A stretch of DNA of 32,842 bases from a bacterium (GTDB lineage Bacteria; Bacteroidota; Bacteroidia; Cytophagales; Thermonemataceae): assembly GCA_025362415.1 (NCBI GenBank), contig JANYGM010000204.1, forward strand, positions 1 through 32,842, given 5' to 3'. The translations under genes and the position numbers were made by a program. Below the pieces are notes generated by a model. The model saw only the letters and a program-made list of their open reading frames with translations, did no database searches and had not been told where the DNA came from. Shown here in pieces: positions 1,139-24,725 of this stretch (position 1 is the first letter of the stretch; each line of letters begins with the position of its first letter).

Positions 1139-1270
1139 TGAAGTCAAGTGTTTTCCACCTGACTTCAATTGAGTTGTTAAATATTTCGTGAAGTCAGGTG
1201 TTTCCACCTAACTTCAATTGAAAGTCTTAAAAGCTATTTCTTAAAGTCAGGTGGAAACACCTGACTTCAC
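1139..1270. repeat. Cluster of three REP-A palindromes (tgaagtcaggtg-tttc/gaaa-cacctgacttca family)
   Basis: Copies at about 1139-1167, 1189-1217 and 1243-1270; the third has the opposite loop orientation (GAAA versus TTTC/TTTT). Confidence 0.8.
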
Positions 1271-1336
1271 AAGGAATGCCGTTATCTAATTGTATTCATT
1301 GTTACTGTAAATTATTCGTTGCAATTTTTGGGAAAA

Positions 1337-16762: not shown

Positions 16763-17317
16763 CTACGCTGCTTTTTCTACCATTTTAGGGCTAGCTTCTG
16801 CACCATATTTTAATAGAATTTGAGAAATTTCCTCTTGAGATTTTCCTTCATTTTTATCCATATCAACAACTAAAACATATTTGTCATCAGTAGAACGTCT
16901 GTCAAAAGAAAATTCTTCTTTTCCAGGTCCCATATTATTAGAGATGAAAAAAGTAGCAACCATTCCCAAAGCGGCAATAAGTACGGTTGCTTCAAAGGTA
17001 ACAGGCACCATTGTAGGAATAGAAACATAGTTTTTACCCCCAATAATCATAGGCCAATCTATGCCCAGCATAAAGGTAATCATTAAGATTGCCAATGAAA
17101 AGCCAAGCGTTGCAAAGCAAAAAGCCGCAATAGGTATGCGTGTACGTGGGTGACCAATATAAACGTCCAAATGGTGAATTGGGTGCGGAGAAAATACTTC
17201 GTGTACTCTCAAACCGTCTTCTTGTACTCTTTGTACGGCATTAAGTATAGCGTTTTCGTGGTCATAAACACCAATTACGTATCTGCTAGACTCTTTTATT
17301 AGTTTATTGTTGCTCAT
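16763..17317 (-). CDS. actD: Alternative complex III subunit ActD (DUF3341)
   Basis: RYVIGVYDHENAILNAVQRVQEDGLRVHEVFSPHPIHHLDVYIGHPRTRIPIAAFCFATLGF. Confidence 0.93.
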   Translation of the reverse strand: MSNNKLIKESSRYVIGVYDHENAILNAVQRVQEDGLRVHEVFSPHPIHHLDVYIGHPRTRIPIAAFCFATLGFSLAILMITFMLGIDWPMIIGGKNYVSIPTMVPVTFEATVLIAALGMVATFFISNNMGPGKEEFSFDRRSTDDKYVLVVDMDKNEGKSQEEISQILLKYGAEASPKMVEKAA

Positions 17318-17392: not shown

Positions 17393-17412
17393 TGTACGAA
17401 TTTGATTTTTGT

Positions 17413-17501
17413 GTTGTCAGGTGTTTTCAACTGACAACAAATGCGCTTTAAAATCCTAATTTATTGCGCTCATTGAAGTCAGGTGGAAACACCTGACTTC
17501 A
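17413..17501 (-). repeat. REP doublet (B' 17413-17438, A' 17474-17501) in reverse orientation to the RAYT locus
   Basis: gttgtcaggtgttttcaactgacaac, then aaatgcgctttaaaatcctaattt, then tgaagtcaggtggaaacacctgacttca. Confidence 0.8.
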
Positions 17502-17523
17502 ATACAACGACTAGGCTTAAAAT

Positions 17524-19180: not shown

Positions 19181-22100
19181 TTACGCTTTATTTCTAATTT
19201 TCGTCAAGTAAGAAACATTTGGTTTTACGCTGATTTCCTCCAATACGTGGAATGCACGGTCTTCTGCAAAAACAACATCACCTGTTTTCTCATCTTTTGA
19301 AAGTTCCAAAACTTTCGCAATCATACTATCTTTGTCGTTCATATCACCAAAAATAATGGCATCTGTTGGGCAAGAAGTCTGACAAGCAGTTTTGATATCT
19401 CCATCTTTTACTAGACGTTTGTCTTTTCTTGCAGTCAATTTTCCTGCTTGTATGCGTTGTACACACAATGAACATTTTTCCATTACACCACGAGAACGTA
19501 CCGTAACATCAGGATTAAGTACCATTCTACCCAAATCAGTGAACATTGTGTAGTTCACATCTTTGAATTTATCATCATTTGTATAATTAAACCAGTTGAA
19601 ACGGCGCACTTTATATGGGCAGTTGTTGGCACAATAACGAGTACCAATACAACGGTTGTAAGTCATTTGGTTAAGCCCTTCAGAACTGTGTGTAGTTGCT
19701 AAAACTGGGCATACAGTTTCACAAGGTGCATTATTACAATGTTGGCACATCATAGGTTGGAAAACAACTTCTGGATTTTCAGATGCTTCTTCCATTTTCT
19801 CATAATTACCAATAGACTTATCTTTCGTATCTGCATCTGTGCTGTAATAACGGTCAATACGCATCCAATGCATCTCACGACCATTTATTACTTCTCTTTT
19901 CCCAACGACAGAAACATTGTTTTCAGACTGGCAACCAATCATACACGCTCCGCAACCTGTGCAAGAGTTCAAATCAACGACCATTCCCCACCAGTGGTTT
20001 TTGGCATACGCTGTTTTTTCGTGTCCTTTCCACATTGTAATATCCGTTGGCTTCTTTTTGCCATCTGGCGTTACAATCATTGGGTAATATCTGCCTGCTT
20101 TTGTGTCTTTTTTGTATGATGCAAGCGTTGATTCCTGCACGTTTTGTCTGCCCATAATAGTTTGGTGCGTTTGCGTAATGGCAAGTTCTGCAACTTCTTC
20201 AGTTTTAGAAATATCAACTCCACTAGCCGCATAAACATACACGCCATCTTTGATTGTAGCAAATGGATAAGCATTTTTACCTACGCCATCACCACATTTG
20301 CCTGCACTCGTACGACCATAACCCAAAGCTAAAGAAACTGTTCCTTGTGCTTGTCCTGGCTGTATCAAAACGGGAACTTTCACAGAAAATCCGTTTGCCT
20401 TTACTTCAACTATATCACCTTGTTTAATTGATTTTTCTTTTGCGTAAGAAACAGAAACACACAAATAATTATCCCAAGTTGCTTTTGTGATAGGGTCAGG
20501 CATTTCTTGTAACCAAGGGTTATTTCCGTGAAAACCACTACCCAAACCAACTTTTTGATACAAAGAAAGTTCCATTTTGTTACTTGCCACAAAAAATGCT
20601 GCTACTGCTGCCGCTGCACCACTTACATCTCCTTTGAAATCAAAATTTCCAGCAAGTCTAGCTTCATTTTTTACAACATCTTTTACTTCTTTTTTGTCAT
20701 CTGCTTTTACATCAGTTTTTGCATCAACTTTTTTATCATCTACTTTTGCATCAGCTTTAACTTCTGTTTTTGTAGTTTCAAAAGAAATATTTTTTGACTC
20801 ATAAACGCCTTCGTGAAGTGCTTTTGTCCAGAAATCATTAAAGTTTTCTTTGGTATTTTTAGCCCAAAAACTTCTTAAAAAATCATAATAAGATTTGCTA
20901 CTTCCAGACCATTTCAAAAGGCTATCTTGTGCTTGGCGTGTGCCTTTGTAGATAGGTGAAATGGTTGGTTGCATAAAACTAAAATAGCCTTTACGTGGTT
21001 CTGCATCTCCCCAAGACTCCAAAAAGTGCATATCAGGCACTACAAACTTACAATTAGCAGAAGTTTCGTCAATTCTATCAGAGAAAGAAAGGCTAAAAGC
21101 AAGTGATTTCAATGCTTTTGCAAATTTTTCACCGCCTTGTGGGTAATCATAAGCAGGGTTTGTACCATAAAAAATAGCTCCACCAGCCGTTCCACCCAAA
21201 ACATCAGCAACAAATTTAGCCATATCTTCATCATTTCCTTGTTTTAGGTAAGATGGAGAAGATAAATCCATAATTTGGTCATAAGCACCAAGTTCTGCAT
21301 TGATTGCATTTACAATTAACTGCACATTTGGGTCATTTGAGCCTGCAATAACAACTGCTTTGCCTTTTTTAGCTTTCAAATCTGCGGCTGCTTGCTTGAT
21401 TTTGTCAGCGACTTTTTTATCAGAAATATCAGAAACAGTCAAACCGCCTTTAATTTCGTTGTATAAAAGTGCTGCTACAATGCCTTCTTGTGAAGGTTTT
21501 ATTTGCATACGGTAATCAGAATTTGCCCCTGTGATAGTCATTCCACTTTCAAAAGTGTACAAACGGGACATTTCTCTATTATTTTTGTTCAATTTCCTAT
21601 TTTTAGCAAATTGACCATTATATTCAGTTGCAGAAAGCCACGTCCCTAAGAAATCAGCTGAGATACTTACAATAGTTTCTGCTTTTGAGAAATCATAAGT
21701 AGGCAAAGCATACGTTCCAAATGATTTTTCGTTTGCTTTTAGCATTCCATACGCAGAAACAGCATCATAAGCAATGTGTTTTACGTTAGGATATTTTTTA
21801 GTAAATTCTGCAATAACTGCCTTTGTAGATGGGCTAAGGATAGAATGTGAAACCAAATAAACCGTTCCGTTAGCAGATGAAAGTGCAGAAACAATTTTTG
21901 CATCAACATCTTCTAATTTAGCTTTTTTGTTATCTTCTCGTGGCTCTTGTATGCGTGAAAGGTCATAAAGTCCTAAGATAGATGCTAAAACTCTCGCACT
22001 TACTTTGCCTTTTGTGATAGAAGAAGCCTCATTTCCATCAATTTTGATAGGACGACCTTCTCTAGTTTTTACCAAAATACTTGCGTATTCGCCATCTTGT

Positions 22101-22387
22101 GCGTATGTACTTGCATAAAAATTGGGAATACTTGGCTCAAAATCCTCTGGTTTATTTAGATAAGGAATAGATTTTTTTATAGGAGCTTCGCAAGCAGCAA
22201 GTGAGACTGCAGCCACACTAAAACCTAATAGTTTGAGGAAATCACGGCGTTTTGTGCCTCCTGCCTCTGTTTGTTCTGCTATTGGCAAAAACTCTGGGAA
22301 TTCATTATGCGCTTTTTTGACGAATTCTATATCATTAGAAAACTCTTCTAAACCTTTCCAGTATATTTTTTTATTCTGATTTTCCAT
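19181..22387 (-). CDS. actB: Alternative complex III subunit ActB (molybdopterin-like plus Fe-S domains)
   Basis: Tat/lipoprotein signal TKRRDFLKLLGFSVAAVSLAACEAP; CTGCGACMIGCQSEN, CQHCNNAPCETVCPV, CIGTRYCANNCPYKVRR, CSLCVQRIQAG...CQTSCPT. Confidence 0.95.
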   Translation of the reverse strand: MENQNKKIYWKGLEEFSNDIEFVKKAHNEFPEFLPIAEQTEAGGTKRRDFLKLLGFSVAAVSLAACEAPIKKSIPYLNKPEDFEPSIPNFYASTYAQDGEYASILVKTREGRPIKIDGNEASSITKGKVSARVLASILGLYDLSRIQEPREDNKKAKLEDVDAKIVSALSSANGTVYLVSHSILSPSTKAVIAEFTKKYPNVKHIAYDAVSAYGMLKANEKSFGTYALPTYDFSKAETIVSISADFLGTWLSATEYNGQFAKNRKLNKNNREMSRLYTFESGMTITGANSDYRMQIKPSQEGIVAALLYNEIKGGLTVSDISDKKVADKIKQAAADLKAKKGKAVVIAGSNDPNVQLIVNAINAELGAYDQIMDLSSPSYLKQGNDEDMAKFVADVLGGTAGGAIFYGTNPAYDYPQGGEKFAKALKSLAFSLSFSDRIDETSANCKFVVPDMHFLESWGDAEPRKGYFSFMQPTISPIYKGTRQAQDSLLKWSGSSKSYYDFLRSFWAKNTKENFNDFWTKALHEGVYESKNISFETTKTEVKADAKVDDKKVDAKTDVKADDKKEVKDVVKNEARLAGNFDFKGDVSGAAAAVAAFFVASNKMELSLYQKVGLGSGFHGNNPWLQEMPDPITKATWDNYLCVSVSYAKEKSIKQGDIVEVKANGFSVKVPVLIQPGQAQGTVSLALGYGRTSAGKCGDGVGKNAYPFATIKDGVYVYAASGVDISKTEEVAELAITQTHQTIMGRQNVQESTLASYKKDTKAGRYYPMIVTPDGKKKPTDITMWKGHEKTAYAKNHWWGMVVDLNSCTGCGACMIGCQSENNVSVVGKREVINGREMHWMRIDRYYSTDADTKDKSIGNYEKMEEASENPEVVFQPMMCQHCNNAPCETVCPVLATTHSSEGLNQMTYNRCIGTRYCANNCPYKVRRFNWFNYTNDDKFKDVNYTMFTDLGRMVLNPDVTVRSRGVMEKCSLCVQRIQAGKLTARKDKRLVKDGDIKTACQTSCPTDAIIFGDMNDKDSMIAKVLELSKDEKTGDVVFAEDRAFHVLEEISVKPNVSYLTKIRNKA

Positions 22388-22506
22388 AAATAATTATGCC
22401 TTAGAATTTTGATGCTTGTTGTTAAGTTATTGGGGCGTGTGCAATTTACACACTTATATAGTCTTTTGAAAATTTATTTAAAATCATTTATTCAAACAAT
22501 TTTCTG

Positions 22507-22611
22507 TGAAGTCAGGTGTTTCCACCTGACTTCAATAATGCGCTTTTAGATACCTACTACAACGAAATTAAAAATATTCGCATTTGTTGTCAGGTGGAAA
22601 CACCTGACAAC
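22507..22611 (-). mobile_element. Candidate non-autonomous REP-A/REP-B unit 1 (A1-spacer-B1)
   Basis: A1 22507-22534, B1 22586-22611; the spacer copies the sequence downstream of RAYT and its last codons (acgaaattaaaaatattc). Confidence 0.65.
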
Positions 22612-22629
22612 ACAGGTTTCTGCTTTTTG

Positions 22630-23305
22630 TGAAGTCAGGTGTTTCCACCTGACTTCAATAATGTGCTTTTAGGTACTTACTACAACGAAATTAAAAATAT
22701 TCTTTGTAATGAACTAGCATTGTTTTATGTATTGTATCAGATAAATAAAACTTAGCACTTGAATATTTGTAATCTTCTGAATTGACTACTATTTCTTTTC
22801 TTACAGGATTTTGGTGTAGATATTGTAGTTTTATTTTTAATATTTCTTCATTGTAAATAACTACATCATCAAATCTATCATTCCAAACCTTAAAAATTTG
22901 ATTTTTATCTTTTATATTTTCTCTTAGACTTTCTAATATTTCTAAATATCCATCTTCTTCTAACATTTTTCTTATTTGTACTGACGTGAATTTCTTAAAA
23001 TCTCGCATCAAATCAGATAATTTAGTTTCATTTTTGAAGTAAATTATGAGATGAATGTGGTTAGGCATAATTACGTAGCCTAATAAATTTGCATCATATT
23101 TCTCACAAACAAACTTTAAACTGCTACAAATCAAGTCGTAATATTTATCATTTATAAAGAGATGTTTCCAGTTATTGCAAGTAGTCGTGACAAAAAAACA
23201 TCTATAATCAGTTAGGTTTTTACGTCCTCTTAGTCCCATTGCAAGTTTTTTCTAAAAATTAAGATTTAAAAACGCATTTGTTGTCAGGTGGAAACACCTG
23301 ACAAC
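22630..23305 (-). mobile_element. Candidate autonomous RAYT unit (REP-A2 - RAYT - REP-B2)
   Basis: Perfect 12-bp stems at A2 (22630-22657, loop TTTC) and B2 (23280-23305, loop GAAA) bracket the Y1 transposase gene. Confidence 0.65.
22691..23239 (-). CDS. REP-associated tyrosine transposase (RAYT; IS200-like Y1/HUH)
   Basis: YVIMPNHIHLII HUH motif and a C-terminal LKIKLQYLHQNPVRKEIV motif containing the likely catalytic Tyr; palindromes on both sides. Confidence 0.9.
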   Translation of the reverse strand: MGLRGRKNLTDYRCFFVTTTCNNWKHLFINDKYYDLICSSLKFVCEKYDANLLGYVIMPNHIHLIIYFKNETKLSDLMRDFKKFTSVQIRKMLEEDGYLEILESLRENIKDKNQIFKVWNDRFDDVVIYNEEILKIKLQYLHQNPVRKEIVVNSEDYKYSSAKFYLSDTIHKTMLVHYKEYF

Positions 23306-23322
23306 ACAGGTTTCTTTTTTTG

Positions 23323-23423
23323 TGAAGTCAGGTGTTTCTACCTGACTTCAATTTAATTGCAAGTTTTTTCTAAAAATTAAGATTTAAAAGCGCATTTGTT
23401 GTCAGGTAGAAACACCTGACAAC
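23323..23423 (-). mobile_element. Candidate non-autonomous REP-A/REP-B unit 3 (A3-spacer-B3)
   Basis: A3 23323-23350, B3 23398-23423; the spacer attgcaagttttttctaaaaattaagatttaaaagcgcatttg copies the RAYT 5' leader. Confidence 0.65.
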
Positions 23424-23440
23424 ACAGGTAAATCTACAAC

Positions 23441-23496
23441 AAAAAAGCCACCATAACTATATTCCTAAACCCTAGAATTTGGAAATATAGTTATGG
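23441..23496 (-). terminator. Terminator-like hairpin directly downstream of actA
   Basis: On the minus strand: ccataactatatttcc...ggaatatagttatgg followed by tggctttttt. Confidence 0.65.
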
Positions 23497-23504
23497 TTTA
23501 ATGC

Positions 23505-24725
23505 TTAGTAATGGCATTTAGAACACTCCAAACCGCCAATATCTTTTACTTTCATTTCTTTTCCGCCACTACCTTTGTGTGCAGCCATTAGTTTGTCGTA
23601 ATATACATTTCCTTCTGATTTTACAACTGTTTGTCTGTGGCAATCAATACACCAACCCATACTCAAAGGAGAGCGTTGTTGTACTACTTCCATTTGTGCA
23701 ATATTTCCGTGACAGCTTGTACATTCAATTTGTCCTGCTACTGTGTGTTGTGAGTGGTTGAAATATACTAAATCAGGCAAATTATGTACTCTAATCCATT
23801 GAATTGGCTGGTTTTTCTCTGCCGCTTCATAGATTTTTTGGATTTGTGGAGAAGTACGTTTGATAGCATTATGACAATTCATACAGATATTCACAGAAGG
23901 AATATTAGCTGATTTGCCTTTGTAAACGCTTGTATGGCAATATTGACAGTTAATTTCGTATTTGCCAGCGTGCAATTTGTGAGAGAAAGAGATTGGTTGT
24001 GTAGGTGCATAACCCGTTTGTTTGCCTATTTTCATAGTTTTGTCAATACCTGCTTTTGCTACTACAAGGAAGAAAAACACGCCTATTACTGCCAAAAATG
24101 CAGAACTTCTAAATATTGACTCTAAATCAAGTTTTTGATTAACAACTTCTTTGTCTGCTTCTGCAAGTTCTTTATGTTGAAGATTTTTTGTGAGCAAAGA
24201 AACTACCAAAGATAATGTTACAAGCACCAAAAGAAGTGTTACGACCATACCAGTCAAAATGACATTATTATAGCCACTTCCACCTTCTGAACTTCCACTT
24301 GTTGCTGGTGCGCCTGCAACGGAAACATTTGTTGCAACAGGTTTATCTCCTTCTGCTTTGATATACCCTAAAATATTTTTGATGTCCTCATCTTTTAGGT
24401 CTGGGAAAGACTGCATTTGCGCTTTTCCGTACTGATTATAAAGGGCTACTGCATACGCATCACCACTAGCAATAACGGCTGATGAGTTTTTAACCCATTT
24501 TAAAAGCCAAGCCTCGTTTCTGCGGTCGTGTATGCCTTTTAGTCCAGGACCTACAACGGCTTTATCTCCTACTCCGTGACAGCTTGCGCAATTTCCAGAA
24601 AACAATTCTTTCCCTTTTGCAATGTCCACTTGGGCATTAGCGGTATGCGCTAATACAGTAAGTCCAAAACATATAAGAAATATGTTCAAAAACTTGGTAA
24701 TGCCTTGATTTTTAAGCAAATACAT
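23505..24725 (-). CDS. actA: Alternative complex III subunit ActA, multiheme cytochrome c with N-terminal monoheme domain
   Basis: Six CXXCH motifs: CASCH, CQYCH, CMNCH, CTSCH, CIDCH, CSKCH; adjacent to actB. Confidence 0.88.
   Translation of the reverse strand: MYLLKNQGITKFLNIFLICFGLTVLAHTANAQVDIAKGKELFSGNCASCHGVGDKAVVGPGLKGIHDRRNEAWLLKWVKNSSAVIASGDAYAVALYNQYGKAQMQSFPDLKDEDIKNILGYIKAEGDKPVATNVSVAGAPATSGSSEGGSGYNNVILTGMVVTLLLVLVTLSLVVSLLTKNLQHKELAEADKEVVNQKLDLESIFRSSAFLAVIGVFFFLVVAKAGIDKTMKIGKQTGYAPTQPISFSHKLHAGKYEINCQYCHTSVYKGKSANIPSVNICMNCHNAIKRTSPQIQKIYEAAEKNQPIQWIRVHNLPDLVYFNHSQHTVAGQIECTSCHGNIAQMEVVQQRSPLSMGWCIDCHRQTVVKSEGNVYYDKLMAAHKGSGGKEMKVKDIGGLECSKCHY

Follow-up and report, generated by a model that had tools for sequence, protein, structure and literature searches.

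The window analyzed here, a 32,842-nt stretch of DNA from a bacterium of the family Thermonemataceae (order Cytophagales), carries an operon that, judging from its protein domains and gene order, appears to encode alternative complex III. Genes for an ActA-like multihaem cytochrome c (23505..24725) and an ActB-like Fe-S/molybdopterin-type protein (19181..22387), both assigned by Pfam domains, lie upstream and downstream, respectively, of a repeat array at 22505-23426. The array contains an intact gene for a REP-associated tyrosine transposase (RAYT) of 182 amino acids (22691..23239), and all three genes are encoded on the minus strand. In 13 relatives with a readable junction, the actA-like gene adjoins actB and 44-97 bp separate the actA stop from the actB start, versus 1,123 bp here; thus, at the level of gene order, not of individual bases, the array has been added to an operon junction that is otherwise conserved. 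Between the array and actA, at 23450-23497, lies an imperfect inverted repeat of 20 bp (90%), possibly the remnant of a transcription signal.

The array is built from six 28-nt palindromes arranged, on the plus strand, as three head-to-tail A...B units. Unit 1 (22507..22612), a gene-less REPIN doublet, consists of REP A1 (palindrome 22507-22534; 22505..22534 with its TGTG tag at 22505-22508) and REP B1 (palindrome 22585-22612; 22585..22614 with its outer CACA tail at 22611-22614). Within A1, a hairpin with a 10-bp stem and a 4-nt loop (22509-22532) is followed by CA and then by the inner foot AATAATGCGCTTTTA, while B1 is preceded by the inner foot CGCATT. Unit 2 (22630..23306) bears the RAYT gene between REP A2 (palindrome 22630-22657; 22628..22657 with its TGTG tag at 22628-22631) and REP B2 (palindrome 23279-23306; 23279..23308 with its CACA tail at 23305-23308). 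Unit 3 (23323..23424), the second gene-less doublet, comprises REP A3 (palindrome 23323-23350; 23321..23350 with its TGTG tag at 23321-23324) and REP B3 (palindrome 23397-23424; 23397..23426 with its CACA tail at 23423-23426). The units are joined by two almost identical linkers, CAGGTTTCTGCTTTTTG (22613..22629) and CAGGTTTCTTTTTTTG (23307..23322). A1, B1, A2 and B2 each form a perfect 12-bp stem with a 4-nt loop; one non-Watson-Crick pair stands beside the loop in the remaining two, G.T in A3 and A.C in B3. Four strict hairpins of such size were observed, compared with 0.001 in composition-matched shuffles of the array region. The initial annotation had described this order of palindromes, their near-perfect stems, the similar linkers and a RAYT in the middle unit, and all of these features were recovered where it had placed them.

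The same annotation read the array as head-to-tail repetition of one A...B unit with the gene in a single copy, which holds for the overall layout; the outer units, however, are not full repeats, and they are unequal, since each retains the opposite end of the RAYT unit. Unit 1 matches the left end (95% over 79 nt): it keeps 73 nt from that end of the RAYT unit (70/73), after which the sequence jumps to the right end, with the junction near 22579. Unit 1 in its entirety is predicted to form a single long hairpin (z -9.5). Unit 3 matches the right end (97% over 74 nt), including the stretch immediately upstream of the RAYT start codon. This pattern is such as internal deletions would leave, and the simplest history would run from a single unit through tandem duplication to internal deletion. 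Three separate, adjacent REPIN insertions could also produce short linkers, and REPIN insertion into or beside REPINs has been reported (PMC3116915). Nevertheless, near-identical linkers combined with matches to opposite ends of one unit are not what independent insertions would produce, and we regard separate insertions as unlikely. A further peculiarity of unit 3 is that A3 and B3 share one core change in inverted form, such that the small hairpins are slightly broken and the long A-B hairpin is preserved; copying between the arms is a possible reason for the match.

Comparison of the palindromes revealed a single REP behind both A and B, which run in opposite directions and have the core GTCAGGTG-GAAA-CACCTGAC in common; they differ in two basal pairs (AA versus TT) and one foot base. 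The two distinct end palindromes of the initial annotation are, instead, variants of one REP family. The source genome (G000; 3.45 Mb in 499 contigs, a fragmented assembly that is 82% complete) contains 159 copies of the 20-nt core at three or fewer mismatches, versus none for a reversed-pattern control. Their context was sampled from 118 REPs located in the window and in 60 stretches around the first 100 of the 159 places. Of 47 neighboring pairs less than 300 bp apart in these stretches, 36 are inverted with the same (tag) side outward (P about 2e-13 under random orientation), 6 are direct and 5 have the opposite arrangement, two of the latter being the linkers of the array itself. The basal pairs covary through TA, AT, GC or CG, with 112/115 and 110/115 REPs with flanks paired at the two positions against shuffled maxima of 74 and 65. 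None of 33 sampled cores lies inside an open reading frame of at least 120 codons, though 73% of that DNA is coding. The repeated unit is thus two inverted REPs in extragenic DNA, which is what defines a REPIN, and the 159-copy repeat and the array together constitute a REPIN family with a single cognate RAYT.

The 33 doublets for which both flanks were available join two different basal types in 28 cases, and 11 are of the A/B (AA/TT) type. Because A and B co-occur in this way elsewhere in the genome, the main objection foreseen for the array, namely that the two palindromes might not be found together outside it, fails. It had also been anticipated that the array might be a local duplication unrelated to RAYT activity; the array itself probably did arise by local duplication, but its palindromes are members of a family found all over the genome, and the link to the RAYT therefore stands. 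No signal of target-site duplication was detected among the 33 doublets, as expected of HUH, not DDE, transposition.

Two other members of the family occur in the window: an intergenic, short degenerate doublet (1183..1276) and a REPIN at 17406..17508, downstream of the array between the operon genes at 17317 and 17524. With six strong hairpins lying between actA and actB, which are transcribed in the same direction, and a further REPIN down the operon, these structures could be taken to act primarily as RNA elements, stabilizing or attenuating the act mRNA. Like doublets are, however, found at many unrelated genomic sites, the hairpins lack the U-tract form of a terminator, and they are absent from the actA-actB junctions of relatives. 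A primary RNA function is accordingly very improbable, although such a role could represent a secondary use of the array hairpins. A scan of the window for known RNA families found none.

Several other repeats were encountered alongside the REPs. A 17-bp sequence, AGAAATTAACATTACTG, forms the common edge of at least five unrelated sequences, among them a REPIN subfamily with a 94-bp spacer, and occurs in 36 copies (as a 19-mer with two or fewer mismatches; e.g., L062:480-600, L073:660-700 and L256:1-500 among the G000 contigs). It resembles the terminus of MITE-type elements, a REPIN being carried by one of them. Members of the largest REPIN subfamily often adjoin the end of this other repeat, and part of the subfamily's copy number may therefore stem from other machinery. 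Taken further, this would make the RAYT a bystander, with the REPs spread by another agent, either recombination or a DDE transposase working on an element that encloses them; REPs with no RAYT beside the copies examined in another genome, G009, could be read in the same way. On the other hand, most doublets carry neither the 17-bp repeat nor a target duplication, and hairpin features track RAYT phylogeny in many phyla (see below), which makes a bystander RAYT quite improbable. A third repeat, GTAGGGGCTGGGCTTGCCCC, has a canonical GTAG foot (L062:480, L071:681, L081:629 and others). Some REP palindromes run on into the flanking DNA (L064:425-706, L074:1030-1080 and L101:490-560), as if by insertion into, or copying across, an existing palindrome.

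The RAYT gene product matches NCBIfam model NF047646 with 108.6 bits (cut-off 80) and also PF01797. It retains the HUH motif (N60-H-I-H63), a YxHxNP motif with the candidate catalytic tyrosine Y140 (YLHQNP), and the SS motif; H61, H63, Y140, N144 and P145 are invariant in a 35-sequence alignment. An AF2 model built from that alignment reached a pLDDT of 89 (a single-sequence model, with a pLDDT of 41, was discarded), and its best fold match in the PDB is 4er8 (E 5e-9), which is also the top profile match. This entry is E. coli TnpA_REP bound to a REP hairpin (PMC8266576). Identity over the fold alignment is 19%. In the alignment from the profile match, read by eye, W94 of 4er8 is kept, while Q95 and R104 correspond to N120 and Y129. 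In the E. coli enzyme, Q95 and R104 contact GTAG (PMC6006769); their replacement fits both a different tag and the description of RAYT subclass 2.6.

The array RAYT gene and its unit occur once in G000, flanked by inverted REPs that are repeated genome-wide. Single-copy occurrence and vertical inheritance have been reported for RAYTs (PMC8049555), and the single gene here suggests the same. A second RAYT, at L121:1456-2139 (C235), is 36% identical and has its own hairpins, GTCGTAGTG-loop-CACTACGAC, with a different outer tag.

A gene enclosed in an A...B unit with inverted ends, an expanded operon junction and outer units that resemble internal-deletion derivatives might also point to an autonomous IS200-like transposon that jumped into the act operon, with the gene-less doublets as its MITE-like derivatives. 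The ends of IS200/IS605 elements are not known to be inverted. Those of the RAYT unit are, and the unit is present once, the next RAYT being only distantly similar and provided with other hairpins. Moreover, the protein scores 34.2 bits against the IS200 model, under its cut-off of 55, and in other REPINs the spacers are similar to the unit's ends at the foot only. An autonomous transposon is therefore an unlikely explanation, and a REPIN family served by a resident RAYT is preferred.

How such a RAYT could recognize its hairpins is suggested by the bases around the stem. The canonical GT[AG]G 5' foot is absent; instead, TGTG/CACA is found in 100/115 REPs, at the position of GTAG: it stands directly 5' of the 10-bp stem and outermost in each doublet, such that the tags point outward as canonical GTAG does. 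In 62 dissimilar REPs, the best conserved bases flanking the hairpin are those on its outer side, CACARRAA (TTYYTGTG, just 5' of the stem, on the other strand), and conservation has fallen to background by the 11th base past the core. The conserved element thus extends a few bases past the palindromes on both sides, as TTYYTGTG...CACARRAA. An alternative guide, the inner foot AAAAGCGCATT (GCGCATT), is conserved in many copies and is not common to relatives, and was kept as a second candidate; in the 62 non-redundant REPs it holds 0.1-0.8 bits per base at positions -13 to -5, whereas the second C in the outer CAC reaches about 2 bits. Repeats tagged with CGTC are known (PMC3733652), and a correspondence with these was rejected, as GTC here belongs to the paired stem and not to an unpaired tag.

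Related RAYT loci were sought in other genomes. A search with the single RAYT protein as query gave no match, and a profile (alignment) scan returned 80 further RAYT loci, one of them a locus already known from genome G085, mostly from Bacteroidota and other FCB phyla. Four RAYTs from other genomes of the order, at 51-41% identity, are flanked by hairpins mostly with a 10-bp stem and a 4-nt loop, and an NGTG tag accompanies the RAYT hairpins in three of these four nearest relatives. Across 111 RAYT loci, hairpin density is 3.1/kb within 100 bp of the gene versus 0.13/kb at 1-1.5 kb (24 times), and stem length peaks at 10 bp, with exactly this length in 72 of the 106 hairpins within 200 bp. The GTC stem motif, the outer tag and the loop length each track the RAYT tree (108 rows, built by a quick method and with many weak forks), and none of 300 label shuffles fitted as well. 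The size of the families varies among relatives: G035 has about 39 copies of its own REP, G085 (51% RAYT identity) has flanking hairpins and almost no other copies, and G009, from another family of the order, contains 36 copies of the G000 REP core (loci L122-L132), several of them paired at a distance of a few bases with their tags on the inside, and no RAYT was seen beside the core copies examined. Family size and RAYT presence are therefore not tightly linked. In G035 (L033:1293-2174), two 111-bp direct-repeat REP clusters flank the RAYT, the gene lying between doublets and not within one.

The tags seen across these loci take lineage-specific forms, TGTG here and endings in GCT, ACT or GCC elsewhere among Bacteroidota/FCB RAYTs. 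A wider reading, which we put forward tentatively and would not yet favor, is that in these RAYTs the GTAG guide has been replaced in place by a lineage-specific tetranucleotide that is changeable and sets the cleavage dinucleotide, RAYT and tag co-evolving as lock and key. By the rule measured for the Marinomonas RAYT, the cleavage dinucleotide for TGTG is predicted to be CA.

Taken together, the locus is best interpreted, with a probability of roughly 80%, as the REPtron of a REPIN family, in which the RAYT recognizes the TGTG hairpin and copies doublets in trans, and in which the array arose via duplication and deletion. What the data show are the anatomy, copy number, orientation bias and covariation of the repeats, the expansion of the junction compared with relatives, the protein family and fold, and the agreement of hairpin features with the RAYT tree; cleavage, the choice of strand, a guide function of TGTG, mobility, and the order in which duplication and deletion took place are inferred. 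The RAYT, an HUH/tyrosine endonuclease related to IS200 transposases, would recognize the 10-bp hairpin and outer TGTG in single-stranded DNA. By analogy with tested RAYTs (PMC8266576), its substrate would be a folded single strand in which the tag precedes the stem on the 5' side, and the tag would help to select the dinucleotide at which the enzyme cuts. Gene-less A...B doublets would then be copied in trans into intergenic sites, while the RAYT gene would stay put. As for the array, a RAYT-bearing A...B unit would have come to lie in the actA-actB junction and been tandemly duplicated together with its linker, and the gene would subsequently have been lost from the outer two copies by internal deletion.

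Similar arrangements are known from other bacteria. The RAYT/REPIN system of Pseudomonas likewise comprises a single RAYT with an adjacent REPIN cluster, inverted extragenic doublets that can fold as one long hairpin or as separate hairpins, and tandem REPIN clusters including their flanks (PMC3116915); in contrast, TGTG here replaces the GTAG foot and the RAYT sits within an A...B unit, not beside the cluster. REPtron Ec, containing E. coli TnpA_REP, shares the fold, the HUH/Tyr core and the placement of one gene amid inverted hairpins, but there the REP stem is bulged and GTAG is strict, whereas the stem here is perfect and carries TGTG (PMC8266576). TIRtrons also hold a RAYT-like gene within inverted, partly self-complementary terminal repeats that are copied elsewhere in the genome, while the repeats here are true hairpin REPs at REP-like copy number (PMC3733652).

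Also close is TnpA_REP subclass 2.6, equivalent to RAYT group 5, from Bacteroidetes: proteins of about 180 amino acids with NH[LIV]H and SS, no GT[AG]G foot, structure copies elsewhere in the genome and no retention of the GTAG-contacting residues (PMC6006769). This comparison is by sequence signature, in which NHIH, SS and the phylum agree, and WN here differs from WQ and YLHQNP from YIH[QN]NP. The structures reported for that subclass are weak, atypical and found by hand, as opposed to the strong stems of constant length described here.

An array of this kind had been considered much less familiar in Bacteroidota, an expectation of novelty that the literature does not bear out. Published examples exist of Bacteroidetes RAYTs with non-GTAG hairpins (PMC6006769) and, in Pseudomonas, of REPIN clusters repeated in tandem together with their flanks (PMC3116915), and doublets of two stem variants are common (PMC3733652). 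Within the open-access literature searched, what is new here is a sharp REP consensus with TGTG in place of GTAG, the position of the gene within one of the repeat units, a stem held at 10 bp while the tags differ by lineage, and an array whose gene-less doublets look like deletion products of a gene-bearing unit.

As to what Bacteroidetes RAYTs recognize, the 2018 survey of these enzymes saw no GTAG foot, and the structures it reported were weak and picked by hand (PMC6006769). G000 offers a large and clean REP population together with its cognate RAYT, and a consensus comprising an 8-nt outer tag, a 10-bp stem and a 4-nt loop, with a tag that is accessible to mutation. Comparison of the loci suggests that, as a general rule, hairpins in the FCB group combine an exchangeable tag with a stem kept at 10 bp. 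The array, in turn, may show gene-less REPINs in the making, through duplication of a RAYT-bearing unit and internal deletion.
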